This document shows, one piece after another, positions 28,898-43,935 of a stretch of DNA of 64,000 nucleotides. The notes beneath the pieces are model-generated. The model made no database searches, was not told the DNA's origin, and saw nothing but the letters and a program-made list of their open reading frames with translations. Source of the DNA: Clostridium sp. Cult1 (GTDB taxonomy: Bacteria; Bacillota; Clostridia; Tissierellales; Tepidimicrobiaceae); NCBI RefSeq assembly GCF_021655095.1, contig NZ_PPXW01000001.1:1458632-1522631 (forward strand), read 5' to 3'. The first letter of the stretch is position 1. Each line of letters begins with the position of its first letter. The position numbers were made by a program, and so were the translations under genes.

Positions 28898-29998
28898 ATG
28901 AAAAAAGTTATATCATTAGTATTAGTTTTAACTATGTTAATTAGCATGCTAATTGGTTGTACGTCTAAGGATATGGAAACTACAGAATTAGATAGTACAA
29001 AGGATGCAGAAGAAATGGATTTAGTAGAAGAAAATAATAGTGAAGAGGAAGGTAATTCTAAAATTGCTGAAATGGAAGAAATATTAATGGATCAATTGGA
29101 ACCAATGCCAGAACTTGATGGAGGAGAAAAAATTGGTGTTTTAATAATTTCTCTTACTAATCCCTTCTGGTCAAATATGAAGGATAAATATGAAAAGGCT
29201 GGAGAAGAATTAGGAATTGAAGTAGAAGTGCTATCTGCACCTACAGAAGGTGATACTACTTCCCAACTTGAGACATTAGATGGAATGATAGTGAAGGATT
29301 ACGATGCTATTATATTTTCACCAATAGATGGTAACAATTTAATTCCAGGGCTATTAAGAGCTAATCAAGCTAATGTACCCGTAATAAATTTAGGGCCTGG
29401 AGTAAATCAAGATGCATTAAAAGAACAAGGTGGACATGTGGATGGCATTATTACTGTGGATTTCGAGAATCAAGGTAAAATGGTTGCCGAAGATATGTTA
29501 AAACAAATGCCTGATGGTGGCAAAGTAGCAATAATACAAGGTATCCCTGGAGCTGGACAGAGTGAAGGTCGTACTAAAGGAGCAAAAGAGGTCTTTGAAA
29601 ACACAGAAGGTGTTGAAATTGTAAGTATTCAACCTGGGAATTGGGATAGAAATACAGCTTATAATATTGCTACAGATCTTATTCAAGCTCATCCAGATTT
29701 AAAAGGAATATTTGCTTGTAATGATGTAATGGCTCTTGCTGCAGTAGAAGCTTTAGAAACAGCTGATAAAAAGGATGGAATTATAGTATATGGTGTAGAT
29801 TTTACAGAAGAGGCACAGGTAGCTATAAAGGAAGGGCGTCTTGATGGTTCTATTACCTATTCTCCATCGGTATATACAAAAGCAGCTTTGCTTTTATCTC
29901 TAAAAATTGTTCAAGGTGAAGAAGTGGAAGGCCCAGTATACTCTCCCCTTGCAGTGGTAAATAAGGAGAATATAAATGATTTTGACGGATGGAAATAG
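28898..29998 (+). CDS. ribose-type substrate-binding lipoprotein
   Basis: 366 residues. Lipobox 'LISMLIGC', a long acidic linker to about residue 70, then a periplasmic-binding-protein type 1 domain: 'GVLIISLTNPFWSNMKDKYE', 'DYDAIIFSPIDGNNLIPG', 'IIQGIPGAGQSEGRTKGA' and 'GIFACNDVMALAAVEAL'. It resembles RbsB-type sugar binders. The coupled downstream glycosidase homologue suggests a nucleoside or C-nucleoside such as pseudouridine. Its last 23 bases overlap that gene. Confidence 0.9.
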   Translation: MKKVISLVLVLTMLISMLIGCTSKDMETTELDSTKDAEEMDLVEENNSEEEGNSKIAEMEEILMDQLEPMPELDGGEKIGVLIISLTNPFWSNMKDKYEKAGEELGIEVEVLSAPTEGDTTSQLETLDGMIVKDYDAIIFSPIDGNNLIPGLLRANQANVPVINLGPGVNQDALKEQGGHVDGIITVDFENQGKMVAEDMLKQMPDGGKVAIIQGIPGAGQSEGRTKGAKEVFENTEGVEIVSIQPGNWDRNTAYNIATDLIQAHPDLKGIFACNDVMALAAVEALETADKKDGIIVYGVDFTEEAQVAIKEGRLDGSITYSPSVYTKAALLLSLKIVQGEEVEGPVYSPLAVVNKENINDFDGWK

Positions 29999-30785
29999 AC
30001 CTAAAAACTACTTGGTAGAAACGGCTTTGTTAGGCCATGGCCTTATATCCGTAGAGGATTATGAGATATTATCTGCTTGGCCCAAAGGAGCAATGTTAGC
30101 TTGGATGGAAAAGGGAAAAATACGCATAGGAACCATTGAGGAGTTCATCACATCAAGACAGGAAAGGGATAGCTGGACTAGACTTGATGGCCGTAAGGTT
30201 AAAGAAGAGTGTAATACTAATATAAACGCCTATCTTACAGCTTCAGGTACTATGGCAGTAGCCAAAGAAATAGGCTGCCCGGTAGTAGTTTCAGCTGGTA
30301 TAGGAGGAATAGGAGATATTAAAGAGGAAAGGCTTTGTTATGACTTACCTGCTCTTTCCCAAATGGATATTACCCTTGTGGCTACATCACCTAAAGATAT
30401 GCTAGATATAGAAGGGACTTTAAACTGGCTTAAGGATCACGGGGTAAATATATTAGGGTTTGAAACAGAATATTGTGATGGATATATATTAAGTCTTAAG
30501 CCTTATAGGCTATTAAAGAAATTATCCTATGAAGATGCAAATCAATTGGAATATGGTTGTAATCTAGTTTTAAATCCAATACCTAAGGATCAACGCTTGA
30601 AAGATGGATCTTTTTTAGAGGAAGCTATTAGAGCTGGTAAAGAAGCTGAAGAAAAAGGACAACATTATCATCCAGCAGCTAATGCTTGTTTTGATAGACT
30701 GAGTTTTGGTTTATCATCAAAAATTCAACTTGAATCTTTAATTTCTAATATAAAATTAGCAGAGATAATAACTGAGAATAGATAG
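29976..30785 (+). CDS. divergent pseudouridine-5'-phosphate glycosidase (PsuG/IndA) family protein
   Basis: 269 residues. 'VETALLGHG' matches the PsuG start region with the catalytic Glu (here E15), 'VVVSAGIGGIGDI' the ATGGIGG segment, 'VATSPKDMLDIEGTL' the Schiff-base Lys region (K140), and 'NLVLNPIP' the C-terminal signature. By my alignment from memory, two other active-site residues of E. coli PsuG, Lys93 and Asp149, become Arg and Leu. No pseudouridine kinase is nearby. So it is probably a C-glycosidase-like lyase on a related nucleoside or sugar phosphate, imported by the coupled ABC system. Confidence 0.7.
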   Translation: MILTDGNRPKNYLVETALLGHGLISVEDYEILSAWPKGAMLAWMEKGKIRIGTIEEFITSRQERDSWTRLDGRKVKEECNTNINAYLTASGTMAVAKEIGCPVVVSAGIGGIGDIKEERLCYDLPALSQMDITLVATSPKDMLDIEGTLNWLKDHGVNILGFETEYCDGYILSLKPYRLLKKLSYEDANQLEYGCNLVLNPIPKDQRLKDGSFLEEAIRAGKEAEEKGQHYHPAANACFDRLSFGLSSKIQLESLISNIKLAEIITENR

Positions 30786-30917: not shown

Positions 30918-31334
30918 ATGAGAATAACTCAAGAAGCAGATTATGCTCTAAGAGCTGTATATTATCTATGTACAATGGAGTCAGGAGCTAGGGTAAGTGC
31001 AAATATAATAGCAGAGGAACAAAATATACCTGTTAGATTTTTATTAAAATTACTACAGAAATTGAGAAATGCAGGATTGGTAGAATCTTTTATGGGGGTA
31101 AATGGAGGATATGTTTTAAATAGAAAACCGCAGGATATAACTTTATTAGATGTGGTAGAAGCCGTAGATGGGCCTATTTATATAAATAGATGTCTATACG
31201 ACCCAGAGGAATGTAATAATATTGGTGTAAAAAATTGTTCTATTCATAAAGCTTTATATCATGTTCAAGAGAATTTAAAAAAGGATTTAGAATCCATTAA
31301 TTTTCAAACCATTTTAGATGATTATAAAATATAG
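30918..31334 (+). CDS. Rrf2/IscR-family regulator of the CODH operon
   Basis: 138 residues. N-terminal winged helix 'RITQEADYALRAVYYL', 'LKLLQKLRNAGLVESFMGVN' and 'GGYVLNRKPQDITLLDVVEA' follow Rrf2/IscR. Three cysteines, C92, C99 and C107, occupy the Fe-S cluster region, so it could sense iron-sulfur status, redox state, NO or CO. It is followed by its own terminator, then cooS; matching operator sites lie before both genes. A role as repressor of itself and regulator of cooSF is inferred. Confidence 0.92.
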   Translation: MRITQEADYALRAVYYLCTMESGARVSANIIAEEQNIPVRFLLKLLQKLRNAGLVESFMGVNGGYVLNRKPQDITLLDVVEAVDGPIYINRCLYDPEECNNIGVKNCSIHKALYHVQENLKKDLESINFQTILDDYKI

Positions 31335-31360
31335 GAAGTGTATAACTTCCATATATTTTT
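31334..31360 (+). terminator. intrinsic terminator after the Rrf2 gene
   Basis: GGAAGT (31334-31339) pairs with ACTTCC (31345-31350), then ATATATTTTT. A short stem, so partial read-through into cooS is possible. Confidence 0.65.
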
Positions 31361-31366
31361 AAATAA

Positions 31367-31407
31367 AAGTACACCAAAGTGGTAAACGTTAACATGATAA
31401 GTATAAT
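31367..31407 (+). promoter_or_regulatory. cooS promoter with Rrf2 operator, copy 2
   Basis: AAGTACACCAAAGTGG plus TAAACGTT (31367-31390) repeats the motif at 30876 with few changes. TATAAT lies at 31402-31407; the matching -35 position (31379-31384, GTGGTA) is weak and falls inside the operator, so the regulator would compete with or aid polymerase there. Confidence 0.65.
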
Positions 31408-31424
31408 ATTAAGGGGGTATTTTT

Positions 31425-33308
31425 ATGGCTTTGAAAATGAAAGCTGCTACTTGCAATTCTGCAGATAAAATATTGGAAAATTTTATTGCAGAATTGGAAT
31501 TTGACACCTGTCATCATAGGATAGAGACTCAGGATATTAAATGTGGGTTTGGACTCCAAGGAGTTTGTTGTAAACTTTGCGCTAATGGACCCTGTAGGAT
31601 TACTCCAGATGCTCCAAAAGGGGTATGTGGTGCTACATCGGATACTATTGTAGCTAGGAATTTTTTAAGAGCAGTTACTGCTGGATCCGCTTGTTATCTC
31701 CATATAGTAGAGAATGCTGCTTGGAATTTAAAAGAAACTGGAGAAAAAAAGGGAGAGATAAGGGGCAAGAATACTTTAAATCAATTAGCTGAACTATTTG
31801 AAATTGATGGAGGAGGTTATCATCAGAAAGCAGTTAAAATTGGCGAAAAGGTATTGGAGGATTTATACAAACCTAGATTTAAGGAAATGGAATTAGTAGA
31901 AAAACTAGCCTATGAACCACGATACGAAAGATGGCAAGAACTAGGCATATTACCGGGAGGAGCAAAATCAGAAGTCTTTGATTCCTTAGTAAAAACCTCT
32001 ACTAACCTTAATAGTGATCCTGTAGATATGTTGTTACACGCTTTAAATCTTGGTATTTCCACCGGATTATATGGGTTATTTTTAACAAACAAACTGAACG
32101 ATATAATGCTAGGAGAGCCTCAGATAAGACCTGCTAGTGTAGGGTTTAAGGTTTTAGATCCAGACTATATAAATATCATGATTACTGGTCATCAGCATTC
32201 TTTATTCTCCCACCTTCAAGAGGCTTTAGTTTCATATTATGCAAAGGAAAAAGCTAAGGAGGTTGGGGCAAAGGGATTTAAATTAGTTGGTTCAACCTGT
32301 GTTGGTCAAGATTTACAGTTAAGGGGAGAACATTATCAGGATGTATTTTCCGGTCATTCTGGAAACAATTTTACTAGTGAGGCTCTAATTGCTACTGGTG
32401 GTATAGATTTGATTTTATCTGAGTTTAACTGTACTTTTCCAGGTATAGAGCCTATTTCTGAAGAATTAATGGTGAAGATGATATGTATTGATGATGTGGC
32501 TAAAAAGCAGAAGGCAGAATTTGTTCAGTATTCCTATGAAGATAGGGAAAACATTTCTCTCTATGTAATAGAAGAAGGGATAAAAAGCTATAAGAATAGA
32601 AGAAATAAAATAAAGATAAATATGCCAGCTAATCATGGAAATGATGATACCTTAACTGGAATTAGCGAGGATTCATTGAGGGAATTTTTAGGAGGTAGTT
32701 ATAAGCCGTTAATAGATTTAATAGTAGCAGGTAAGATAAAAGGGGTTGCAGGAATCGTTGGTTGTTCCAATCTGGTTTCAGGCGGGCATGATGTATTTAC
32801 CGTTGAACTTACAAAGGAACTTATAAAAAGGGATATTATAGTTTTATCAGCAGGATGTTCTAGTGGAGGTTTAGAAAATGTTGGACTTATGTCTCCACAG
32901 GCAGCAGTATTAGCTGGAGATAGTTTAAGAAGCATATGTGAACAATTAGGCATTCCTCCAGTATTAAACTTTGGTCCCTGTTTATCTATTGGAAGGTTGG
33001 AAGCCGTTGCTACAGAATTAGCTAGAATACTTAATATAGATTTGCCACAACTGCCACTTATTCTTTCTGCGCCTCAATGGTTAGAAGAACAGGCTTTAGC
33101 AGATGGTGCTTTTGCTCTTGCTTTAGGGTTACCTCTACATTTAGCGAAACCACCTTATATAACTGGCAGTAAAATAGTTACTAAAGTTTTGACTGAAGAC
33201 TTGGAAGAATTAACAGGTGGTAAGTTAATCATGGACGATGATGTCTTAAGTACAGCAGATAAATTAGAAAATATTATCCTATCTAAAAGAAATGCCTTGG
33301 GTATTTAA
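31425..33308 (+). CDS. cooS: anaerobic Ni-carbon monoxide dehydrogenase catalytic subunit, CooS (variant)
   Basis: 627 residues, normal CooS length. The D-cluster (C40, C48) and B-cluster (C49, C52, C57, C68) cysteines are in 'CGFGLQGVCCKLCANGPCR'. C-cluster ligands are all findable: H256 ('TGHQHS'), C292, C336 ('FNCTFPG'), C447 ('VGCSNL'), C478 ('AGCSSGG') and C519 ('FGPCLS'). However, the His-rich 'AHSDHG'-type segment of well-studied CODHs reads 'ACYLHIVENAAW' here, and the Lys563-like position near 'EEQALADGAF' looks like Gln. Encoded with CooF and an FAD/NAD oxidoreductase, it likely couples CO oxidation or CO2 reduction to NAD(P); catalysis may be altered. Confidence 0.92.
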   Translation: MALKMKAATCNSADKILENFIAELEFDTCHHRIETQDIKCGFGLQGVCCKLCANGPCRITPDAPKGVCGATSDTIVARNFLRAVTAGSACYLHIVENAAWNLKETGEKKGEIRGKNTLNQLAELFEIDGGGYHQKAVKIGEKVLEDLYKPRFKEMELVEKLAYEPRYERWQELGILPGGAKSEVFDSLVKTSTNLNSDPVDMLLHALNLGISTGLYGLFLTNKLNDIMLGEPQIRPASVGFKVLDPDYINIMITGHQHSLFSHLQEALVSYYAKEKAKEVGAKGFKLVGSTCVGQDLQLRGEHYQDVFSGHSGNNFTSEALIATGGIDLILSEFNCTFPGIEPISEELMVKMICIDDVAKKQKAEFVQYSYEDRENISLYVIEEGIKSYKNRRNKIKINMPANHGNDDTLTGISEDSLREFLGGSYKPLIDLIVAGKIKGVAGIVGCSNLVSGGHDVFTVELTKELIKRDIIVLSAGCSSGGLENVGLMSPQAAVLAGDSLRSICEQLGIPPVLNFGPCLSIGRLEAVATELARILNIDLPQLPLILSAPQWLEEQALADGAFALALGLPLHLAKPPYITGSKIVTKVLTEDLEELTGGKLIMDDDVLSTADKLENIILSKRNALGI

Positions 33309-33321
33309 AGGGGGATTAGAG

Positions 33322-33771
33322 ATGAAAAGGATAATGATCGATAAGGATAAATGTATGGCCTGTCTTGGTTGTGTATTAGGATGTATGGCTGAACACAATG
33401 AAAAGGGGAAGTCTATTTATGATTTGGATTTAGAAGATAGGACTAACGAAAGTAGAAATCATATAGAGTTAGATCATAAGCAAAATCCCATTCCCATTGT
33501 ATGCCGTCACTGTCAGGAACCAGAGTGTGCAATTACCTGCATGAGTGGTGCCATGACTAAAAATGATGAAACGGGATTAGTAGAGTACGATAAAGATAAA
33601 TGTGCAGCTTGCTTTATGTGTGTAATGTCCTGTCCCTATGGGGTTTTAAAGCCAGACAGAGTAAATAAGGAAGTCATTATGAAATGCGATATGTGCGATA
33701 ACAAGGATACTCCAAGATGTGTAGAATTCTGCCCTACTAAAGCATTGTATACAGTGGAGGTGATGGAATGA
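33322..33771 (+). CDS. cooF: CooF-like polyferredoxin with four 4Fe-4S sites
   Basis: 149 residues with four cysteine groups: 'CMACLGCVLGC', 'CRHCQEPECAITC', 'CAACFMCVMSCP' and 'CDMCDNKDTPRCVEFCP'. This is the DMSO-reductase-B/CooF type electron carrier, taking electrons from CooS. An upstream ATG at 33292 lies inside cooS, but AAAGGGGGA at 33307-33315 supports ATG 33322. Its stop overlaps the next start (ATGA). Confidence 0.92.
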   Translation: MKRIMIDKDKCMACLGCVLGCMAEHNEKGKSIYDLDLEDRTNESRNHIELDHKQNPIPIVCRHCQEPECAITCMSGAMTKNDETGLVEYDKDKCAACFMCVMSCPYGVLKPDRVNKEVIMKCDMCDNKDTPRCVEFCPTKALYTVEVME

Positions 33772-35000
33772 AATATTTAGTATTAGGCGCTAGTGCGGCT
33801 GGTATTAATGGAGCAAAAACTTTGAGAAAATTAGATAAAAATAGTTCTATTACCCTAATATCTGTTGATGATAAGGTCTATTCCAGATGTATGCTCTATC
33901 TATATATAGGTAAAAAAAGAAATTTAGAGACTTTATCCTTTATAGATAAAGATTTTTTCAATAGGAATAATATAGAATGGATAAAAAACAAAAGGGTTAG
34001 TAAGGTTGAATCAAAGGAAAAGAAGGTGATATTAGAAGATGGTACTTTCCATGAATATGATAAACTCCTTATAGCTACAGGTTCATCAGCGGCAATTCCT
34101 CCTGTAGAAAACTTAAGGGAAGGCAAAAATGTATTTACCCTAAGAAATTTAGAGGATGCTATGGCCATAGACAAACTTGTAAACATATCTAAAACTGCAG
34201 TAGTTATTGGTGGAGGATTGATAGGCATAGATATTGCTGTGGAGCTTATAAATAGGGGTCTTAAAGTCCATATTGTGGAAATGGGGCCAAATATATTGCC
34301 TATGCAATTGGATGAGAGAAGTGCTAAAACTTATGAAAGGGAGTTAATGAAAAGAGGGGCTACTATATTAACGGATAAATTAGCTCAGAAGGGGGTATTA
34401 GATTCAGAAAATAATGTGGTAGAGGTAATATTAACAGATGGTACAAGAATTGGAACGGATATGGTAGTAGTAGCTGCCGGGGTTAGGGCTAATGCAGATT
34501 TTATTGAAGGTACAAATATTGAATTCGACAGGGGGATTATAGTCGATAATAGATGTCAAACGGCTGAAGAGGATATATATGCAGCAGGAGATGTCTGTGC
34601 AAATAAACCGGGTATATGGCCTTTAGCGGTAAATGAAGGTATATCTGCAGCATATAATATGGTGGGGATTGATAAAAAAATAGAGAGTTCTTTTGGATTT
34701 AAAAACTCCATGAATTTCTATGGTATTCCAACTATATCTATAGGTAATCCAAATCCTAAAGACGATAGTTACCAGATTAGCATGTATGATGACGGACAAA
34801 TATATAAGAAGATAGTGCACAAAGATGGTATTGTCTATGGGGCTATATTTCAAAATGATATATCCTATATAGGCCCTTTTACAAAGATAATTGGAGATGG
34901 AATTGCTATGGATTCAATAGATAAAAATATATTCAAGATAGGCTATGGAGATTTCTTCCATGTTAAACCCAATGGAGAGTTTGAGTATAAAATAATATAG
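33768..35000 (+). CDS. FAD/NAD(P)-dependent oxidoreductase of the CODH module (FNOR)
   Basis: 410 residues with two Rossmann folds: FAD site 'VLGASAAGINGAKTLRKL' and NAD site 'VVIGGGLIGIDIAVEL', plus 'LLIATGS' and the FAD phosphate motif 'DIYAAGDVC'. It belongs to the NADH-oxidase/rubredoxin-reductase-like group found next to CODH in several anaerobes, where it is thought to move electrons between CooF and NAD(P). A Cys-containing 'VYSRCML' lies near residue 43, where related NADH oxidases carry a redox-active Cys. Confidence 0.9.
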   Translation: MKYLVLGASAAGINGAKTLRKLDKNSSITLISVDDKVYSRCMLYLYIGKKRNLETLSFIDKDFFNRNNIEWIKNKRVSKVESKEKKVILEDGTFHEYDKLLIATGSSAAIPPVENLREGKNVFTLRNLEDAMAIDKLVNISKTAVVIGGGLIGIDIAVELINRGLKVHIVEMGPNILPMQLDERSAKTYERELMKRGATILTDKLAQKGVLDSENNVVEVILTDGTRIGTDMVVVAAGVRANADFIEGTNIEFDRGIIVDNRCQTAEEDIYAAGDVCANKPGIWPLAVNEGISAAYNMVGIDKKIESSFGFKNSMNFYGIPTISIGNPNPKDDSYQISMYDDGQIYKKIVHKDGIVYGAIFQNDISYIGPFTKIIGDGIAMDSIDKNIFKIGYGDFFHVKPNGEFEYKII

Positions 35001-35080: not shown

Positions 35081-35130
35081 TTGCAAACCTTTGCTTAATA
35101 TGCTATTATTAATATACAATATTTTGTATA
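35081..35130 (+). promoter_or_regulatory. yhfZ promoter and candidate YhfZ operator
   Basis: TTGCAA (35081-35086), 17 bases, TATTAT (35104-35109). Just downstream, 35111-35130 reads AATATAC-n8-GTATA, with TATACAA/TTGTATA as a perfect 7-bp repeat. The same half-sites and spacing recur at 36113. Confidence 0.7.
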
Positions 35131-35160
35131 CTGATAATGTGTTGAAAGAGGAAGATAGAT

Positions 35161-36099
35161 ATGCTTAGTTGTAAGAGAAAGTTAATGTCTAAAAATGGCG
35201 AAGTTGCAATGCTTTTAGCTAGAGAGCTTATTAGCTATAATATAGGGGATAGAATAAGAACTGTAGGAGATTATGCTGAGAATTTTAGTACTGGAAGAGG
35301 TACTGTTCAATCTGCAATTAAGCTTTTAGAGGATGAAGGAGCAATAGGGCTTGAGAGTAGAGGACATTTGGGTACTTTTATATTATCTATTGATTATAAG
35401 AAATTATGGAGTATTTCTGACTTTGGAGTAGTAATGGGAGTTATGCCTTTACCTTATTCTAAACGTTATGAAGGTTTAGCCACAGGATTATACAAAGCTT
35501 TTGAAAAAGCTGATATTCCCTTTAGTTTAGCCTTCATGAGAGGGGCAGGAAAAAGAATTGAAGCATTAGATATGGGAAAATATGATTTCACTATTACGTC
35601 TAAATTGGCTGCAACTCATGAAAAAGATAAATTTAAATTTATTGATGTGATGCATATTTTTAAAGAAGGAAGTTATGTAGGAGAGCATATTATACTATTT
35701 AGAGATAATCATGTTAATAAAATAGAGGATGGTATGAAAATAGGAATAGATACTACTTCACCAGACCAGTTTTTATTAACTAAATATGAATGTGAAGGAA
35801 AAGATGTAAAATATATTGAAACATCTTATAATCAGATAGTAGAAAAACTAAAAAATAAAGAAATAGATGCAGCAGTATGGAATGAAGATGAGATTAAAGA
35901 AAAAGGTTTAAAGTTTAATACGCAAAGGCTTAAAAACCCAAAAAGCCTAGAAATAAATAAAAATGATACTATGGCAGTTATGGTTATAAATAATAATAAT
36001 TTAGAACTTGAAAATATAATTAAAAAATTTATTGATATGGAATATATAGAAAGTATTCAAAAAAGAGTATTAGAAGGACAGATTATTCCTATGTATTAA
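35161..36099 (+). CDS. yhfZ: YhfZ family regulator (GntR-like HTH plus YhfZ sensor domain)
   Basis: 312 residues. The N-terminus has a GntR-like winged helix ('VGDYAENFSTGRGTVQSAIK', 'LLEDEGAIGLESRGHLGTFI'). The remainder ('VMGVMPLPYSKRYEGLATGL' to 'MYIESIQ'-like C-terminus) is the YhfZ domain with a periplasmic-binding-protein-like layout ('KYDFTITSKLAA', 'KIGIDTTSPDQFLLTK'), so it probably senses a small ligand. It heads the yhf gene set; paired palindromes before it and before yhfY are candidate binding sites. E. coli YhfZ has no proven ligand. Confidence 0.88.
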   Translation: MLSCKRKLMSKNGEVAMLLARELISYNIGDRIRTVGDYAENFSTGRGTVQSAIKLLEDEGAIGLESRGHLGTFILSIDYKKLWSISDFGVVMGVMPLPYSKRYEGLATGLYKAFEKADIPFSLAFMRGAGKRIEALDMGKYDFTITSKLAATHEKDKFKFIDVMHIFKEGSYVGEHIILFRDNHVNKIEDGMKIGIDTTSPDQFLLTKYECEGKDVKYIETSYNQIVEKLKNKEIDAAVWNEDEIKEKGLKFNTQRLKNPKSLEINKNDTMAVMVINNNNLELENIIKKFIDMEYIESIQKRVLEGQIIPMY

Positions 36100-36112
36100 T
36101 TTTTTTAATTTC

Positions 36113-36134
36113 AATATACTGAAAACTGTATATT
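36113..36134. promoter_or_regulatory. candidate YhfZ operator, copy 2
   Basis: AATATAC (36113-36119), 8 bases, GTATATT (36128-36134): a perfect 7-bp inverted repeat with the same half-site and spacing as the site before yhfZ. It lies 17 bases before the yhfY start. Confidence 0.65.
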
Positions 36135-36151
36135 CTTTTGGAGGTAATGAA

Positions 36152-36517
36152 ATGGATAATATGTTGTTAATGAGATTAAATTTATTATTAGATGCTGGAG
36201 AAATAGATGAAGATATAATACAAATTATCAAGGAGTTTACAAAAATAATTGAGAGGGAATTGTCTTTAACAATAACCGAGAAAAACGGGTCTATGCTAGT
36301 AACTCATATGGCAATGGCTTTAGCAAGGATTAAAAAAGGAGAAGAGATTTTGCCTCTTGATGATGTTTTAATGGGAGAAGTAAAAACCTCTGCTATCTAT
36401 GATAGAGTACCTTTACTAATTAGTAAATTGGAAGAAAAATTTAATATTGAAATACCTGAATCAGAATTTGGATATATAGCTCTCCATTTATGTAATTTAA
36501 ATAATATAAATAACTAA
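36152..36517 (+). CDS. yhfY: YhfY-like PRD-domain protein
   Basis: 121 residues, one PRD-type fold: 'EFTKIIERELSLTITEKNGS', 'MLVTHMAMALARIKKGEEI' and 'IPESEFGYIALHLCNL'. PRD domains are usually phosphorylated on His by the PTS; His-containing 'VTHMA' and 'ALHLC' are the two expected positions. It has no DNA-binding part, so it may modulate YhfZ or the transporter. GGAGG ribosome site. Confidence 0.85.
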   Translation: MDNMLLMRLNLLLDAGEIDEDIIQIIKEFTKIIERELSLTITEKNGSMLVTHMAMALARIKKGEEILPLDDVLMGEVKTSAIYDRVPLLISKLEEKFNIEIPESEFGYIALHLCNLNNINN

Positions 36518-36631
36518 GGACTCTTGTCTATTATGACAGGTTGAAAAAGAATTACAAGCAAAGAGGTGATTATTTGTGGATATATGAGTTAATAGATATA
36601 TAAATAGAAAAAAATAAAGGAGGGAATTTAA

Positions 36632-37000
36632 ATGGTAAATATTGTTGTCGGTGGACAGATGGATAAACAACAAATTGGAAAGCTCATTGAAGAACATGGT
36701 AAAGGAAAGGTTAAAGTTAATATCAAAGGGGATATAGAAGCTGTACTTGATCTAAAAAATGGACAAGCAGATTATTACTTTGGTTCTTGTGCAACAGGAG
36801 CAGGAGGGGCTTTAGCTATGGCTATTGGCATAATCGGTGCAGCAAATTGTTTATCTGTAAGTATTCCTGGAAAGGTTTTATCAGAGGAAGAAATGAGAAA
36901 AGCAGTTAAAGATGGAAAGAAAGCTTTTGGTTTTGTAAATACTGACGCAGAGAAGGTTATTCCAATTTTGATTGATGAAATATTGAATAAGGAGGAATAG
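36632..37000 (+). CDS. yhfU: YhfU family protein (DUF2620)
   Basis: 122 residues: 'NIVVGGQMDKQQIGKLIEEH', 'AVLDLKNGQADYYFGSCATG' and 'GGALAMAIGIIGAANCLSVS'. This Gly/Ala-rich, cytosolic-looking protein is always found next to YhfT and is thought to work with it; by layout it could be a PTS-IIB-like or ligand-handling partner. Function unproven. GGAGGG ribosome site; yhfT starts four bases after its stop. The 114-base gap before it holds no convincing gene. Confidence 0.85.
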   Translation: MVNIVVGGQMDKQQIGKLIEEHGKGKVKVNIKGDIEAVLDLKNGQADYYFGSCATGAGGALAMAIGIIGAANCLSVSIPGKVLSEEEMRKAVKDGKKAFGFVNTDAEKVIPILIDEILNKEE

Positions 37001-37003
37001 ACA

Positions 37004-38323
37004 ATGTTATTTGAAATTAATTTACTCACCATAATTGTCATGGCTGCTTTGGGTGGTATTTGTACTTACCTAGCAAACCAAAATATAGCAGTATTTCATG
37101 ATGGCTTACGCCCTTTATACTCTCAATATTTTGATGGAGCAATGGATAGAAAGACTTTGTTTGCTACAAGTTTTGCTTTATCATTTGGTCTGGTAATAGG
37201 ATTTGGTATTCCTACATCTATTGCAGGCAAAATAATTATCGTTCATACTATTATGTTGGCTTGTGATATTATAGGTACTCTATTTCCGGATAACGAAAAG
37301 GGCAAATGGATATCCACATCGGTAGGTGCATTATTTGGAGTTGTTTTGTTATTTGGCATGCAGGTAATAATGGATATTTTTTCAGTACTACCAATTGATT
37401 TTACTGGGGATTTAGGTACAGTAGGAAGTTTAATAATTGTTTCTTTTTCAGTATTTCCAGCAATAGCAGTTGCATATCAAGCAGGAGTAGTAAAAGGTGG
37501 AATTGTATTAGTTTTAACTATGATCATAAAACAAATAACATCTCTATATGGTAAATTTTCTATAAAAACAGTAGAAGTTGTATTAAATGCTGATGGTATG
37601 GCGTTGTTGTTTGGTATTGCTGCTATGATTTTTGTTGCCGCAAGGCATAATAAGAAATCAGATGGGGAAACAGCAAGTGCATTTGCAGTATTCGGTAAAA
37701 ATATAGAAAAGATTAGAAAAAATATGTTTGTTTTAGCTATTAGTGGTGGAATTGTTGCATTGGCTACAACCCTATTGTTAATTGCTGAAGGGCCAGCTTC
37801 TTTAACTCTTACGGCTGAGGGTCAATATGCTGAAGCAGCAATGGTTGCATTAGGAAGAACTTTAGGTTTTATACCTTTAGTAATGACTACTGCAATTATT
37901 TCAGGAGTATATTCACCGGCGGGTACTAAAGCAGTTCATGTTCCTGCAATCCTATTTATCAATATGGGGATCATGGGAATGGTAGGTTCTTTCTTTGTTG
38001 GGGCTTTAATAATGGCAATAGAAATTCTTTTATTAGGATTTATAGCTACAGGAATGGATAAATTTCCAGGTATGAAAGAATTAGGAGATAATGCACGTAC
38101 TGCAATGTCCAAAGTATTAGATATTGCATTGCTTGTTGGTGGTATGTTAGCAGCTAATGCAATAGCTCCTACTATAGGTTATATTTGGGTAATTGGTCTA
38201 TTTTTCTTAAATCAGGTTTCAAAGAAGCCTATTGCATCTATGGCTATTGGACCCCTTGGTGCTATAACAATGGGTTTAATAGTAAATATTCTTCACCTAT
38301 TAGGCTTATTCCCTATTAGCTAA
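37004..38323 (+). CDS. yhfT: YhfT family membrane transporter
   Basis: 439 residues, about eleven or twelve hydrophobic helices. 'NQNIAVFHDGLRPLYSQYFD' and 'GAMDRKTLFATSFALSFGLV' near the N-terminus are YhfT-family blocks. Presumed importer of the unknown yhf substrate. GGAGG ribosome site. A perfect palindromic terminator follows, so the php-S-X-W genes may be expressed separately. Confidence 0.87.
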   Translation: MLFEINLLTIIVMAALGGICTYLANQNIAVFHDGLRPLYSQYFDGAMDRKTLFATSFALSFGLVIGFGIPTSIAGKIIIVHTIMLACDIIGTLFPDNEKGKWISTSVGALFGVVLLFGMQVIMDIFSVLPIDFTGDLGTVGSLIIVSFSVFPAIAVAYQAGVVKGGIVLVLTMIIKQITSLYGKFSIKTVEVVLNADGMALLFGIAAMIFVAARHNKKSDGETASAFAVFGKNIEKIRKNMFVLAISGGIVALATTLLLIAEGPASLTLTAEGQYAEAAMVALGRTLGFIPLVMTTAIISGVYSPAGTKAVHVPAILFINMGIMGMVGSFFVGALIMAIEILLLGFIATGMDKFPGMKELGDNARTAMSKVLDIALLVGGMLAANAIAPTIGYIWVIGLFFLNQVSKKPIASMAIGPLGAITMGLIVNILHLLGLFPIS

Positions 38324-38338
38324 AATAAGGAATCCTTT

Positions 38339-38374
38339 AAAGTTAAGGGAGAAGCTTCTCCCTTAACTTTAGTT
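38339..38374 (+). terminator. perfect palindromic terminator between yhfT and php
   Basis: A 32-base perfect palindrome (16-base arms meeting at AAGCTT, 38339-38370) followed by AGTTT. It divides the yhf genes into two blocks. Confidence 0.8.
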
Positions 38375-38395
38375 TAATTGCTATTTAGGTAAAGT

Positions 38396-38452
38396 TGTCA
38401 GTATTTTAATGGTAATTAAAGTATTGACAGGTTTATCTAAAAAATTTAGAAA
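38396..38452 (+). promoter_or_regulatory. inverted repeat and putative promoter before php
   Basis: 38396-38410 and 38415-38429 form a 15-bp inverted repeat (ends TGTCA/TGACA) with two G-T pairs and a 4-base loop. TTGACA at its right end (38424-38429) could be a -35 box, with TAGAAA (38447-38452) 17 bases on. Confidence 0.5.
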
Positions 38453-38469
38453 AAAGAAGGAGTAAGGAT

Positions 38470-39372
38470 ATGATTACTACAGTAAAAGGAAAGGTAAAAA
38501 GGCTTGGTAAAACCTATATACATGAACATATCAAACTAGATTTATCAGGCCATAAAAAAGATCCTGATACGAATTATAACGATACAAATGAGGTAATGTT
38601 AGAATTAAAAGAACTTAAGAAAAAAGGAATGGATTCATTGGTTGAAGTTACAAATCGTGGTATGGGCAGAGATGTTCTAATAATGGTAGAATTAGCCGAA
38701 AGAACAGGATTAAATATAATTGCTAGTACTGGATTTTATAAAGAGCCCTTTTTACCCCAATATTTTTACCAATTAAGTGATAAAGAATTAACTAATATGT
38801 TAATTAAGGATATTGAGGAAGGTATGGACGAAACCCATATAAAGGCTCATGTCTTAGGAGAAGTGGGCACTAGTCATAACAGAATTACAGATACAGAAAG
38901 AAGACTTTTTTATATTATAGGAAATGTACATCTAAATACAGGAAGGCCAATTTTTACCCATACTACCTTGGGAACAATGGCGTTAGAGCAAATACAAATA
39001 CTTGAAGAAAGAAATGTTGATTTAGAAAAAGTATTAATAGGTCATATGGATTTAAATTATAATATGGAATATCATCTAAGAGTTGCTGATAAGGGTTGTT
39101 ATTTAGGGTTTGATACAATTGGTAAAATAAATTATCAACCTGATGAAAATAGAATTCAATTAATAAAAGAATTAGTAGCAAGGGGACATGAAAATCAAAT
39201 TGTCTTATCTTTAGATTTAACTAGAAAATCCCATTTAAAAAAATATAAAGGAATTGGATATTCTTATATTGTTGATAAATTTATACCTTTATTAATTGAA
39301 TCGGGAATTAAAGAAGAGACGATTAGTAAATTTTTGGTGGATAATCCGAATAGATTACTCAATATATCTTAA
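38470..39372 (+). CDS. php: phosphotriesterase homology protein Php (YhfV)
   Basis: 300 residues, amidohydrolase-fold PTE family. Metal ligands: H18 and H20 ('YIHEHI'), bridging E131 ('LGEVGTS'; Glu rather than carbamylated Lys, as in E. coli PHP), H164 ('FTHTTLG'), H192 ('IGHMDL') and D249 ('SLDLTR'). Relatives hydrolyse lactones or phosphoesters, but PHP has no proven substrate. Start ATG follows AAGGAG. Next gene begins 13 bases on. Confidence 0.9.
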   Translation: MITTVKGKVKRLGKTYIHEHIKLDLSGHKKDPDTNYNDTNEVMLELKELKKKGMDSLVEVTNRGMGRDVLIMVELAERTGLNIIASTGFYKEPFLPQYFYQLSDKELTNMLIKDIEEGMDETHIKAHVLGEVGTSHNRITDTERRLFYIIGNVHLNTGRPIFTHTTLGTMALEQIQILEERNVDLEKVLIGHMDLNYNMEYHLRVADKGCYLGFDTIGKINYQPDENRIQLIKELVARGHENQIVLSLDLTRKSHLKKYKGIGYSYIVDKFIPLLIESGIKEETISKFLVDNPNRLLNIS

Positions 39373-39385
39373 AGGAGGAAGAAGA

Positions 39386-40480
39386 TTGAAGGTTTACCCA
39401 ATAGAAACCATGGATATAGAAAAGGCAAAAGAATTTCAATTTAGACTTGTAGATATAATTCACAGACATTTTAGAGGTGATGAATTTTTAAATGCTGGAG
39501 ACTATGGAGTAGTGCCCGGTATAGGGAAACCTACTTATACTGAAAAAGTAGAAAAAGTAATAGCAGATTTTTTCCATGGAGAGGCCTGTATATTAGTAAG
39601 GGGTTCTGGAACTGGTGCTATAAGAAATGTTATAAATGCTAAAGTTAAGCCTAATGATAAAATATTGATCCATGATGCACCAATATATCCAACTACAAAG
39701 GTTATTATTGAATCCATGGGACTAGAACAAGTTAAGGTGGATTTCAATATAATGGATGATTTTAATGAGAAAATAATTAAGGAAGTGGAATTCTGTCTCA
39801 TCCAACATTCAAGGCAAAGAATAGATGATAGATATAACCTAGAGGAAGCAATTAAAAGACTAAAACAAATTAATAAAAATTTATATATTTTAATTGATGA
39901 TAATTATGTTGTTATGAAGGCGGAGAAAATAGGAATTCAAAGTGGCGGAGATATTAGCGCATTTTCATTATTTAAGCTTTTAGGTCCTCAGGGAATAGGT
40001 TGTGTAGTAGGAGATAGGAAAACCATAGATAGGATAAAAGATATGAACTATTCTGGTGGAAGTCAGGTACAAGGTTATGAGGCTATGGATGCATTGAGAT
40101 CTTTAGTATATGCTCCAGTAATGTTGGCCATTCAAAAACAAGTAGGAGATGAAGTAGTATCAAGAATAAATAAGGGAGAGATAAAAGGCGTTAAGTCTGC
40201 ATTTATAGCAAATGCTCAGTCAAGGGTAATACTTGTAGAATTCGAAGCTCCTATAGCTAAAAAGGTACTAGAGTATACCAATATTCTAGGAGGAGCCCCT
40301 TATCCAGTAGGAGCTGAGTCAAGGTATGAAGTTACGGGAATGTTTTATAGAGTATCGGGTACATTTTTAGCTCATAATCCTAAGCTAGAAGATTATATGA
40401 TTAGGATTAATCCTATGAGATCTGGAGCTGATACTATTATAAGGGTTCTTAAAGAAGCAGTAAATAAAGTATTGATATGA
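39386..40480 (+). CDS. yhfS: YhfS family PLP-dependent aminotransferase-like enzyme
   Basis: 364 residues, fold-type I PLP enzyme. 'RGSGTGAIRNVINA' is the phosphate-cup region, 'ILIDDNYVV' holds the ring Asp and 'SLFKLLGPQGIGC' the Schiff-base Lys197. AAAGGAGG (39371-39378) places the start at TTG 39386; an upstream ATG at 39296 lies inside php. YhfS is grouped with cysteine-desulfurase/aminotransferase types but its reaction is unknown. Confidence 0.88.
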   Translation: MKVYPIETMDIEKAKEFQFRLVDIIHRHFRGDEFLNAGDYGVVPGIGKPTYTEKVEKVIADFFHGEACILVRGSGTGAIRNVINAKVKPNDKILIHDAPIYPTTKVIIESMGLEQVKVDFNIMDDFNEKIIKEVEFCLIQHSRQRIDDRYNLEEAIKRLKQINKNLYILIDDNYVVMKAEKIGIQSGGDISAFSLFKLLGPQGIGCVVGDRKTIDRIKDMNYSGGSQVQGYEAMDALRSLVYAPVMLAIQKQVGDEVVSRINKGEIKGVKSAFIANAQSRVILVEFEAPIAKKVLEYTNILGGAPYPVGAESRYEVTGMFYRVSGTFLAHNPKLEDYMIRINPMRSGADTIIRVLKEAVNKVLI

Positions 40481-40489
40481 GGTGGTTAA

Positions 40490-41665
40490 ATGTTTTTAGA
40501 TATAACATTGAGAAGGAATATAGATTTAGTGGAAACTGCAATTAATCTACACCAGAGTGGGCAAATACGAGCCAATACTTATGTTTTAGACTTAGATAGG
40601 ATAGTAGAAAATGCAAAGCTAATAAAAGAAGAAGCGGATAAAAACAATGTAGAAATATACATGATGACTAAGCAAATTGGCAGAAATCCAGAAGTAGCTA
40701 AGAGAATTGCTCAAGTGGGCATAGAGAAGGCAGTAGCTGTAGATCCTTGGGAGGCTATGGTATTAGCTAAGCATGGAATCAAGATAGGAAACGTAGGACA
40801 TTTAGTTCAAATACCATCTAATATGATTAAGGAAATATTAAAGTTAGATCCTGAAGTGGTAACTGTTTTTTCGGTTGAAAAAGCAAAAGAAATTGCCTTA
40901 GAAGCGGAAAAGCAAGGGAAAGTACAGGATATATTATTGAGAGTAGTAGATAGTGATGATTTAATATATGAAGGACAAACAGGTGGATTTAAATTTGAAA
41001 AATTGCTAGAATCTGCTAAGGAGATAATGAAATATAAGGGAGCAAGGATTGTTGGAGTTACTGTTTTCCCTTGTTTTTTATATAACCCAGAGAAAGGCAC
41101 AGTAGAAAAAACTCATAATTCAAAAACATTGATTAATAGTGCAAAGGTATTAGAAAAAGAATTGAATATAAAATTAAAACAAATAAATGCCCCTAGTGCT
41201 AATTCTATAGCATCCATATCTATGATTAGAGATATTGGTGGAACTCATGGAGAACCGGGTCATGCATTTACAGGTACTATTCCTATCAATGCATATAGGG
41301 ATCAACCTGAAATCCCAGCTATGGTATATGTTAGCGAAATTTCTCATTGCTATAATGGGAAAGCTTATGTATTCGGTGGGGGGTACTATAGAAGAGGTAA
41401 TATAAGAAAGGCGATGGTAGGGTCTAGCCTAGGAAAAGGGTTAAACAATATATTGGAAGCGTCTGATATTTCACCTACCAATATTGATTATTATGGTGAA
41501 CTGATAATAGGGGATAAAAAAATTTCTATAGGAGATACGGTAATCTATGCTTTTAGAACACAAATTTTTGTAACCAGATCTGAGGTAGCTCTAGTAGAAG
41601 GAATTAGTAATAATAATCCTAGGGTTTTAGGGATATACGATAGTTTTGGTAATAGGTTAAGGTAG
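40490..41665 (+). CDS. yhfX: YhfX family alanine-racemase-like PLP enzyme
   Basis: 391 residues. The N-terminal barrel holds the PLP Lys61 in 'MMTKQIGRNP'; 'RANTYVLDLDRIVENAKLI' and 'GVTVFPCFLYNPE' are typical of fold-type III racemases/decarboxylases. Likely racemises or otherwise acts at the alpha carbon of an amino acid made or used by YhfS. Starts nine bases after yhfS. Confidence 0.88.
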   Translation: MFLDITLRRNIDLVETAINLHQSGQIRANTYVLDLDRIVENAKLIKEEADKNNVEIYMMTKQIGRNPEVAKRIAQVGIEKAVAVDPWEAMVLAKHGIKIGNVGHLVQIPSNMIKEILKLDPEVVTVFSVEKAKEIALEAEKQGKVQDILLRVVDSDDLIYEGQTGGFKFEKLLESAKEIMKYKGARIVGVTVFPCFLYNPEKGTVEKTHNSKTLINSAKVLEKELNIKLKQINAPSANSIASISMIRDIGGTHGEPGHAFTGTIPINAYRDQPEIPAMVYVSEISHCYNGKAYVFGGGYYRRGNIRKAMVGSSLGKGLNNILEASDISPTNIDYYGELIIGDKKISIGDTVIYAFRTQIFVTRSEVALVEGISNNNPRVLGIYDSFGNRLR

Positions 41666-41675
41666 AGGTGATAAT

Positions 41676-42878
41676 ATGAAACGTGCTATTTTGGTAGTTG
41701 TTGATAGCTTGGGAATAGGTTATATGAATGATGTTCATAAATATAGGCCACAAGATATAGGAGCAAATACTTTTGGTCATATATTGGATAAGGCTAAAAG
41801 TATTGAAATACCAAATTTTCAAAAGCTGGGTATTAATAATATAATCAACCATAATAGATTGAGTAATATAGACAATATAGGAAGTTATGGCATATTAAAT
41901 CTTGAACATTATGGTGCAGATAGTTATGTAGGTCATCAAGAAATAATGGGTACTAAACCAAAGAAACCCTTATTAGAACCCTTTTCTTTTTTTAGAGAAC
42001 AGGTTATTGGCAAATTAATAAAGGAAGGCCATAAGGTAACTTGTCCTGAAGAAAATAAACCGTATATTCTTGTAGACGATTTAGTGGTGGTAGCAGACAA
42101 TATTGAAACAGATTACGGTCAAATATACAATGTAACTGCTCCATTAGACTTTATTCCTTTCGAAAAAGTTATAGATATAGGGAAAAAGGTAAGATCTGTT
42201 GTAAAAGTAAATAGAGTAATAGCTCTCGGTGGAGAAGGAGTTAGTGTAGAGCAAATACTAGGAAGCATAGAAAAAAGGAAAGATGGACTAATAGGTGTTA
42301 ACTCACCGAAATCTGGAGTATATAATAAAGGTTATTTAAGTAGGCACTTAGGATATGGGGTAAATCCAGAAAAACAGATAAGTGCTATATTAGCTAGAAA
42401 CAATTATGAAGTAACCTTAATTGGTAAGATGCAAGATGTAATAGAATGTGAAAAGGCGACAAAAATTCCCGCAGTAGATACTGAAAAGGTTATGAAAGAA
42501 ACCTTGGATTCTATGAGTTATTTATCTGAAGGGATTATTGCAGCTACGGTTCAAGAAACGGATTTAGCTGGACATGCTCAAGATGTAGAAAAGTATGTAA
42601 AAAAGCTAATGATTGTGGATAAGTATATTGGAGATATTATGAATAGTATGAAGGATGGGGATATATTATTTATTACAGCTGATCATGGCAACGATCCAAC
42701 TATAGGTTTTAGCCAACATACTAGGGAAAAAACATTTTTACTAGTATATGGTAAGAGGTTGAATAAAGTAGCTTTAGGAGAAAGAAATACTTTATCAGAT
42801 ATTGCGGCAACTATTTCTGATTATTTCAATGTAGAAAAAACTGAAAATGGAAATAGTTTTTTAGAATATATTAAGTAG
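41676..42878 (+). CDS. yhfW: YhfW family phosphopentomutase-like metalloenzyme
   Basis: 400 residues, alkaline-phosphatase superfamily like DeoB: 'AILVVVDSLGIGYMNDV' gives the first metal Asp, 'GADSYVGHQEIMGTKP' the Thr/His region corresponding to the DeoB phospho-Thr loop ('SVTGHWEMMG'-like), and 'LFITADHGNDPTIGFSQHTR' the C-terminal metal site. It probably moves or removes a phosphate on a sugar phosphate. Exact substrate unknown. Last gene of the yhf set. Confidence 0.88.
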   Translation: MKRAILVVVDSLGIGYMNDVHKYRPQDIGANTFGHILDKAKSIEIPNFQKLGINNIINHNRLSNIDNIGSYGILNLEHYGADSYVGHQEIMGTKPKKPLLEPFSFFREQVIGKLIKEGHKVTCPEENKPYILVDDLVVVADNIETDYGQIYNVTAPLDFIPFEKVIDIGKKVRSVVKVNRVIALGGEGVSVEQILGSIEKRKDGLIGVNSPKSGVYNKGYLSRHLGYGVNPEKQISAILARNNYEVTLIGKMQDVIECEKATKIPAVDTEKVMKETLDSMSYLSEGIIAATVQETDLAGHAQDVEKYVKKLMIVDKYIGDIMNSMKDGDILFITADHGNDPTIGFSQHTREKTFLLVYGKRLNKVALGERNTLSDIAATISDYFNVEKTENGNSFLEYIK

Positions 42879-42978: not shown

Positions 42979-43935
42979 ATGGCAAATAGGATAGTAATAG
43001 CATTAGGAGGAAATGCGCTTCAAGAAAATCCAGAGGATATATCAGCGGAAGCTCAGCTTGAAACTGCTAAAAAAACAGCAGCATCTATAGTGGATTTTAT
43101 AGAGGAAGGTCATGAAGTAGTAATTGTCCATGGCAATGGACCTCAAGTAGGTCAAATTGTCTCTGTATATGAAAAGGCAATAGGTATACCCAATATGCCT
43201 TTCCCAGAATGTGGTGCAATGAGTCAGGGGTATATAGGTTACCATTTACAACAATCTATAGGTGAAGAAATGAGAAAAAGGGGTATAGACAAGGGAATAA
43301 CGGCTATGATAACCCAAGTATTAATAGATGAAGAAGATCCAGCTTTCTGCAATCCAACTAAGCCAGTAGGTTCTTTCTTTTCAAAGGAGGAGGCAATGGA
43401 ATTAGAGAAGAGAAAGGGATATATAATGAAGGAGGATGCAGGCAGGGGTTGGAGAAGAGTAGTACCATCACCAGAACCTAAAAATATTATAGAATCTAAA
43501 ACACTTAAAACATTGGTAGAGTTAAATTTCATAGTGATAACTGCAGGCGGTGGCGGTATACCTGTAATAAGGGATGATGATGGAAAATTAAAAGGAGTTT
43601 CTGCAGTAATAGATAAAGACCTAGCTGCAGAGTTGGTTGGGGAGATAGTCGATGCAGATGTACTAATTATTCTAACAGCAGTAGAAAAAGTATGTATCAA
43701 TTTTAACAAACCAACGGAAAAAGGATTGGATACCATTACCATTGAAGAGGCTGAAAAATACATAGAAGAAGGTGAATTTGCTCCAGGCTCTATGCTTCCA
43801 AAGATAAAAGCTGCTATAAAATTTGTAAAAAGTAAACAAGGGCGAAAGGCCATAATAACATCCTTGGATAAAGCTAAGGAATGTATGAAAGGAACTGTAG
43901 GTACTAAAATTGAGGATATCCATAGTAAAAAATAA
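42979..43935 (+). CDS. arcC: carbamate kinase ArcC
   Basis: 318 residues: 'IVIALGGNAL', 'VVIVHGNGPQVGQ', 'PFPECGAMSQGYIGYHL' and 'VITAGGGGIPVIRDD' are carbamate-kinase blocks. It makes ATP from carbamoyl phosphate in arginine, agmatine or purine/allantoin breakdown. No arginine deiminase or carbamoyltransferase is in the window; dihydropyrimidinase and XdhC at the start of the window favour ureide/purine degradation. Single gene with its own TATAAT-like -10 at 42940. Confidence 0.92.
   Translation: MANRIVIALGGNALQENPEDISAEAQLETAKKTAASIVDFIEEGHEVVIVHGNGPQVGQIVSVYEKAIGIPNMPFPECGAMSQGYIGYHLQQSIGEEMRKRGIDKGITAMITQVLIDEEDPAFCNPTKPVGSFFSKEEAMELEKRKGYIMKEDAGRGWRRVVPSPEPKNIIESKTLKTLVELNFIVITAGGGGIPVIRDDDGKLKGVSAVIDKDLAAELVGEIVDADVLIILTAVEKVCINFNKPTEKGLDTITIEEAEKYIEEGEFAPGSMLPKIKAAIKFVKSKQGRKAIITSLDKAKECMKGTVGTKIEDIHSKK

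Follow-up and report, generated by a model that had tools for sequence, protein, structure and literature searches.

The php-yhf operon of Escherichia coli (php-yhfSTUWXYZ; Php structures 1BF6 and 4LEF) comprises eight gene families on one strand with yhfZ in first position. Seven of these are still 'y' genes in strain K-12, and no paper giving the php-yhf genes a pathway was found in the literature searched. Among the described systems to which they can be compared are the salvage operons for N-acetylmuramic acid (MurNAc), namely murQ-murP-yfeW in E. coli, murQ-murR-murP-amiE-nagZ in Bacillus subtilis, and the MupG clusters, which are devoted to amino-sugar catabolism linked to the phosphotransferase system (PTS), the type of process considered here for php-yhf. 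The operon protein Php belongs to the phosphotriesterase (PTE) family, which can cleave amides too, as exemplified by the N-acetyltaurine hydrolase PTER (PMC11374699). Here we analyse a stretch of 64,000 nucleotides from Clostridium sp. Cult1 (contig NZ_PPXW01000001.1), termed the window, in which positions 35161-42878 carry all eight php-yhf families adjacent to each other (Z, Y, U, T, php, S, X, W) as intact open reading frames (ORFs), head to tail on the plus strand, as already stated in a preliminary description and now supported by Pfam and NCBIfam scores for each gene. The best-supported function, to which we assign a probability of about 0.5, is a locally controlled, PTS-regulated catabolic pathway for an amino sugar phosphate which ends at glucosamine 6-phosphate (GlcN-6-P).

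Gene content, gene order, and co-inheritance

For comparison, 80 relatives were fetched across Bacillota, Spirochaetota, Fusobacteriota, Thermotogae, and Gammaproteobacteria, supplemented by sampled genomes and plasmid records; their loci are labelled L025, L067, etc. The closest genome record found was that of [Clostridium] ultunense DSM 10521, whose YhfT is identical to that of the window. The window operon (Z Y U T php S X W) differs in order from that of E. coli (Z Y X W php U T S), and its order had been taken to be new. It turned out to be the commonest one, present in 32 of the 70 loci with all eight families; the order U T php S Z Y X W is found in 18, and the E. coli order is in the minority (4/70, E. 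coli included).

All eight families are present in 52 of the 65 loci with sufficient flank. The exceptions are mostly lineage-specific, such as Photorhabdus, which lacks yhfW, and several Pasteurellaceae and Treponema loci without a yhfZ nearby; a Synergistaceae locus contains yhfT and php only. Of 398 Bacillota genomes sampled, 12 score above the cut-off for YhfT, 13 for YhfS, and 15 for YhfX; the 12 with YhfT all carry both others, and in the one genome possessing YhfS and YhfX without YhfT the contig is cut near yhfS. Because each of these three proteins occurs in only about 3-4% of the sampled genomes, chance is excluded as the cause of the eight-gene grouping. php-yhf is largely one widespread, co-inherited unit. 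The earlier view that the eight parts serve a single unit is borne out by the complete loci and the near-perfect co-occurrence, and the opposite pattern, in which the families would often stand singly or beside unrelated genes, was looked for and was not what the loci displayed.

Co-inheritance might also reflect a mobile cluster held together by transfer, i.e., a selfish operon in which Z-Y-U-T and php-S-X-W serve partly separate pathways. The scattered distribution over the five phyla and classes named above, the shuffling of blocks among orders, and the divergent orientation of yhfU-yhfT relative to the remaining genes in L033 and L034 are consistent with such a history, as is a hairpin between yhfT and php in the window (38337-38372, plus strand). 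This 16-bp structure, which has a weak T tail, is a possible attenuator or RNA-processing site and lies where many relatives have an amidase gene. However, the completeness of 52 of 65 loci, a common operator, and the retention of active-site residues argue for joint function, and we consider the selfish-operon explanation improbable. The Breznakiella locus L033 (1688-11731) additionally contains two copies of yhfY and has genes for HPr and enzyme I (EI) directly after yhfW.

A conserved operator and the regulators YhfZ and YhfY

A conserved operator exists in this family of loci. In a scan of upstream regions, the palindrome TCAATATACA-N6-TGTATATTGA was found in many relatives ahead of yhfZ, yhfY, or yhfU, at a distance of roughly 10 to 170 nt from the gene start, the conservation extending across Firmicutes. 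With up to four mismatches, 101 sites were obtained across the loci, most of them before these three genes, vs none in one mononucleotide-shuffled control, a shuffle which preserves base content only. The window has two copies: TTAATATACAATATTTTGTATACTGA at 35109-35134, with two mismatches, and TCAATATACTGAAAACTGTATATTCT at 36111-36136, with three. In a scan of the whole 2.6-Mb genome allowing three mismatches, these were exactly the two sites detected. The operator also precedes nagB in L049 and a gene for a secreted PF00144 hydrolase in L094. Further matches in the genomes of L146, L147, and L148, where the neighbours are chorismate synthase and a radical-SAM-type gene, a sulfatase, and hypothetical genes, were as numerous as with a reversed-pattern control and were taken as chance.

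The first gene, yhfZ (35161-36099, plus strand), encodes a regulator with a helix-turn-helix (HTH) domain and a YhfZ_C domain (PF14503, PF14502), which scores 414 bits with the NCBI equivalog model NF041241 (cut-off 260) and is a member of that family. As it is the sole operon protein with a DNA-binding domain, YhfZ is the natural reader of the operator, and we infer that it binds the palindromic sites, from which it would repress the operon and answer to a ligand of the pathway. The second gene, yhfY (36152-36517, plus strand), encodes a single stand-alone PTS regulation domain (PRD; PF00874, 61 bits), in which His52, Arg59, and Glu105 are invariant in 82 homologues. A lone PRD with an invariant histidine suggests PTS control, and YhfY may couple the activity of the pathway to PTS phosphorylation by HPr~P. 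The regulatory roles assigned to YhfZ and YhfY beforehand fit these domains as well as the conserved operator.

The genomic distribution of the general PTS proteins is in line with this assignment. EI is present in 12 of 12 genomes with YhfT vs 157 of the 398 genomes overall (P about 1e-5), and both EI and HPr are encoded in all 33 yhf genomes inspected. Moreover, when genes within 3.5 kb of the yhf block were counted in 91 loci, with about 0.5 occurrences expected for each gene under a rough model, HPr was found in 13 and EI in 5. In Treponema lecithinolyticum (L037, 5045-17404), genes for a BglG-like regulator, EIIA, HPr, and EI lie upstream of the yhf block, which is followed downstream by an EIIB/EIIC pair of the ascorbate type.

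Predicted enzymes and transporter

The php gene (38470-39372, plus strand) encodes a binuclear metal hydrolase of the PTE family (PF02126, 287 bits), whose PTE metal ligands H18, H20, E131, H164, H192, and D249 are near-invariant in 87 homologues. After E. coli Php, its best solved match is 3PNZ, which we take to be the phospho-furanose lactonase Lmo2620. Residues K219, Y222, and R252 of Php are matched in 3PNZ, whereas the lactonase 3ORW lacks counterparts of them, and R228 is common to both structures; the metal ligands and the equivalents of all four residues are shared with phospho-furanose lactonases (3PNZ, 3MSR). This pattern suggests that Php acts on a phosphorylated substrate. Php differs from these lactonases in being shorter, with a score of about 168 bits, and in the pocket residues N221 and H255, and it falls outside the phospho-furanose lactonase family model NF045706 (136 bits vs a cut-off of 630). 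PTER shares the PTE-family fold and is farther from the window Php than 3PNZ. Judged from fold and residues, Php could open a phosphorylated lactone or cut an amide.

YhfU (36632-37000, plus strand) is assigned by Pfam only to DUF2620 (PF10941, 140 bits) and is not recognized as a member of the RpiB/LacAB family at the level of sequence profiles (hhalign to RpiB E 0.0027, probability 11%). Its AlphaFold2 model (predicted local distance difference test, pLDDT, 95.5) nevertheless has the RpiB fold: 113 of 122 residues align with RpiB (Z 13.2, root mean square deviation 2.6; Foldseek probability 1.00, E 1.3e-3), and 23 RpiB/LacAB-type entries rank ahead of anything else. Cys53 is present in 88 of 88 homologues and invariant together with Thr55 in an alignment of 59 sequences; in two sequence alignments, both weak, Cys53 falls on the catalytic cysteine of RpiB and Thr55 on a threonine of RpiB, so that the cysteine and the T-G loop are in register. 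In contrast, conservation does not extend to the DH motif at the N-terminus, to the ANK motif, or to the HNxxN segment farther on. Because these motifs are missing, a sugar-phosphate isomerase activity is only a proposal for this divergent protein, which may isomerise or bind a sugar phosphate. By its predicted fold, YhfU would not be a membrane importer subunit, contrary to the suggestion that YhfT and YhfU together form an importer. The gene yhfT (37004-38323, plus strand) encodes a polytopic transporter (PF10797, 447 bits; AlphaFold2 pLDDT 87.5), which as the only membrane protein of the operon would import the compound. No confident solved relative of its fold was found, the best match being VcINDY with Z 6.9 over 103 residues, which is inside the noise range of the tool.

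In a different interpretation, YhfT and YhfU would form a PTS permease of a novel kind, in which YhfU is a phosphocysteine protein of the EIIB type and the PRD of YhfY a phosphocarrier replacing EIIA. This view draws on the invariant Cys53 and His52, the 14 loci in which HPr and/or EI genes lie next to yhf, the presence of EI in all 12 genomes with YhfT, and the EIIB structure 3czc, which YhfU matches better than any other non-RpiB entry (Z 7.9). An assignment of YhfU as EIIB was dropped in favour of RpiB after structure prediction: RpiB matches far better, and the cysteine of YhfU ends strand 3 as in RpiB, whereas that of EIIB follows strand 1. Pfam places neither YhfT nor YhfU in an EII family. 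No EIIC is among the matches listed for the YhfT model, which leaves room for an EIIC likeness, and regulation via the PRD would also explain the HPr linkage. A permease of this kind is in our opinion very improbable.

The last three genes encode two enzymes dependent on pyridoxal 5'-phosphate (PLP) and a mutase-like protein. YhfS (39386-40480, plus strand) is of PLP fold-type I with a YhfS-like_C domain (PF22475, 160 bits); its start is probably the TTG at 39386, the longest ORF beginning at 39296. YhfX (40490-41665, plus strand) is of fold-type III, with the N-domain of alanine racemase (PF01168, PF21279) and a YhfX-like_C domain (116 bits). By sequence comparison, the top solved homologues are 4J8L for YhfS (E=7e-114) and 4KBX for YhfX (E=6e-95), presumably the E. 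coli proteins YhfS and YhfX. From conservation, K61 of YhfX and K227 of YhfS (394-amino-acid frame) are the putative catalytic lysines, and the fold types would allow both enzymes to act on an amine-bearing carbon or an attached amino acid. Three YhfX paralogues are encoded outside yhf loci, two with sugar ABC transporters and a BadF-type kinase and one with an SIS-domain protein, an aldolase, and kinases. YhfW (41676-42878, plus strand), a phosphopentomutase-like member of the alkaline phosphatase superfamily (PRK12383, 549 bits, cut-off 254) with near-invariant Asp82 and metal ligands, may shift a phosphate on the sugar.

These folds also fit a pentose- or nucleoside-type pathway in which YhfW, YhfU, and Php process a modified pentose phosphate bearing an amino acid that is degraded by YhfX and YhfS. 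Such a pathway would agree with the phosphopentomutase score of YhfW, the ribose-5-phosphate isomerase B fold of YhfU, the position of 3PNZ as the nearest characterised relative of Php apart from E. coli Php, and an indigoidine/PsuG-like gene and a PfkB-type kinase gene after yhfW in L069. However, the fold names leave the sugar undecided, since LacA and LacB use hexose phosphates with the RpiB fold, and the recurrent neighbour is no pentose enzyme but NagB (11 loci, one of them with the operator). We regard a pentose pathway as unlikely.

Neighbouring genes and the proposed pathway

In the count of 91 loci introduced above, the GlcN-6-P deaminase NagB (nagB equivalog) was found beside yhf in 11, spanning spirochaetes, clostridia, bacilli, and Halanaerobium. 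An amidase-signature protein with conserved K60, S111, and S133 (L088 numbering) and a weak match to Pfam Amidase is encoded in or beside the operon in 48 loci, and a secreted PF00144 serine hydrolase of the YfeW/AmiE type as well as a HAD phosphatase in six each. In B. subtilis and E. coli, the genes for AmiE and YfeW, respectively, are parts of MurNAc operons (PMC5061867). In L067, yhfW is directly followed by a GntR-UTRA regulator, a MurP-like PTS EIIBC, MupG, and MurQ, and in L025 a MupG fragment, comprising the end of the gene, precedes yhfZ. YfeW/AmiE-like hydrolases, MupG, MurQ, or NagB adjoin yhf in some relatives. The yhf operon itself differs from the MurNAc operons in that no MurQ etherase, MurP, or NagA is encoded within 35161-42878, and in its PLP enzymes, its phosphomutase, and its hydrolase of the PTE fold. 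MurQ is present in 38 of 40 genomes with yhf vs 14 of 40 genomes with EI and without yhf. In the genome of the window, an EIIA-RpiR-MurQ-EIIBC-MupG run, assigned from sequence and a MurQ search, is located elsewhere.

The proposal of an amino-sugar-phosphate or lactone-type substrate, already made in the preliminary description, is supported by the NagB linkage and by the Php residues common to phospho-furanose lactonase. Within the amino-sugar-phosphate pathway, a muramic-acid-type, peptidoglycan-derived substrate is the leading specific guess, and a rather doubtful one. Tentatively, and with the odds against it, php-yhf could be an undescribed peptidoglycan-sugar salvage branch for a muramic-acid-type compound that is out of reach of the MurP/MurQ route, such as a lactam, among them the muramic lactam of the spore cortex, a lactone, or a form bearing a peptide, and would deliver it to GlcN-6-P and NagB. 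In the amino-sugar-phosphate pathway generally, as in such a branch, import would be followed by opening of the compound by Php or by the optional amidase of many relatives, which would strip an acyl or peptide group, then by the reactions of the two PLP enzymes, the RpiB-fold isomerase, and the phosphomutase; in many relatives NagB would end the route by converting GlcN-6-P to fructose 6-phosphate and ammonia. The source would probably be a peptidoglycan-type amino sugar of the muramic-acid family that joins the MurQ/NagB routes, which is the weakest step of the scheme.

Several points weigh against the proposed pathway. Its reactions are computational predictions, YhfU lacks some of the active-site residues of RpiB, and no known MurNAc route accounts for a pair of PLP enzymes together with a mutase. 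The window operon contains no gene for NagB, the amidase, or the PF00144 hydrolase, and a search of this genome for the amidase found none. The P values for linkage presume independent loci and a guessed copy number, whereas several loci are related by descent (six from Photorhabdus, three from Treponema), and these values serve only as a guide. MupG and MurQ, in two loci and one locus, respectively, are not significant by proximity alone. The MurQ association is confounded by lineage, being mixed within families and including one yhf genome without MurQ where controls of the same family have it, and lineage may explain much of the contrast.

In L069 (PsuG-like, PfkB) and L070 (LarA-like, SDR, sugar kinase, KDPG aldolase), yhf is joined to other sugar genes, hinting at more than one final route. 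About 4.4 kb upstream of the operon, beside a ribose-type ABC transporter, the window itself encodes a PsuG/indigoidine-A-like protein (29976-30785) that clusters with the product of the gene following yhfW in L069. Directly upstream of the operon (30918-35000) are genes for a CO dehydrogenase catalytic subunit, a ferredoxin, and an NAD(FAD)-dependent oxidoreductase, preceded by an Rrf2-type regulator gene. A candidate operon promoter, TTGCAA-17-TATTAT with an extended -10 TG (35081-35109, plus strand), is a consensus match only, and such matches are no commoner in this region than in shuffles. A carbamate kinase gene (arcC, 42979-43935) follows yhfW at a distance of 100 bp on the same strand; among the loci seen it is linked to yhf in this species only and was left out of the operon.

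The operator, the revised role of YhfU, the amidase as a ninth gene, and the NagB, HPr, and MurNAc-type neighbours narrow the possible substrates of an orphan operon to a short list that can be tested. Should the peptidoglycan interpretation be true, php-yhf would represent an extra route of cell-wall recycling in gut and environmental bacteria.

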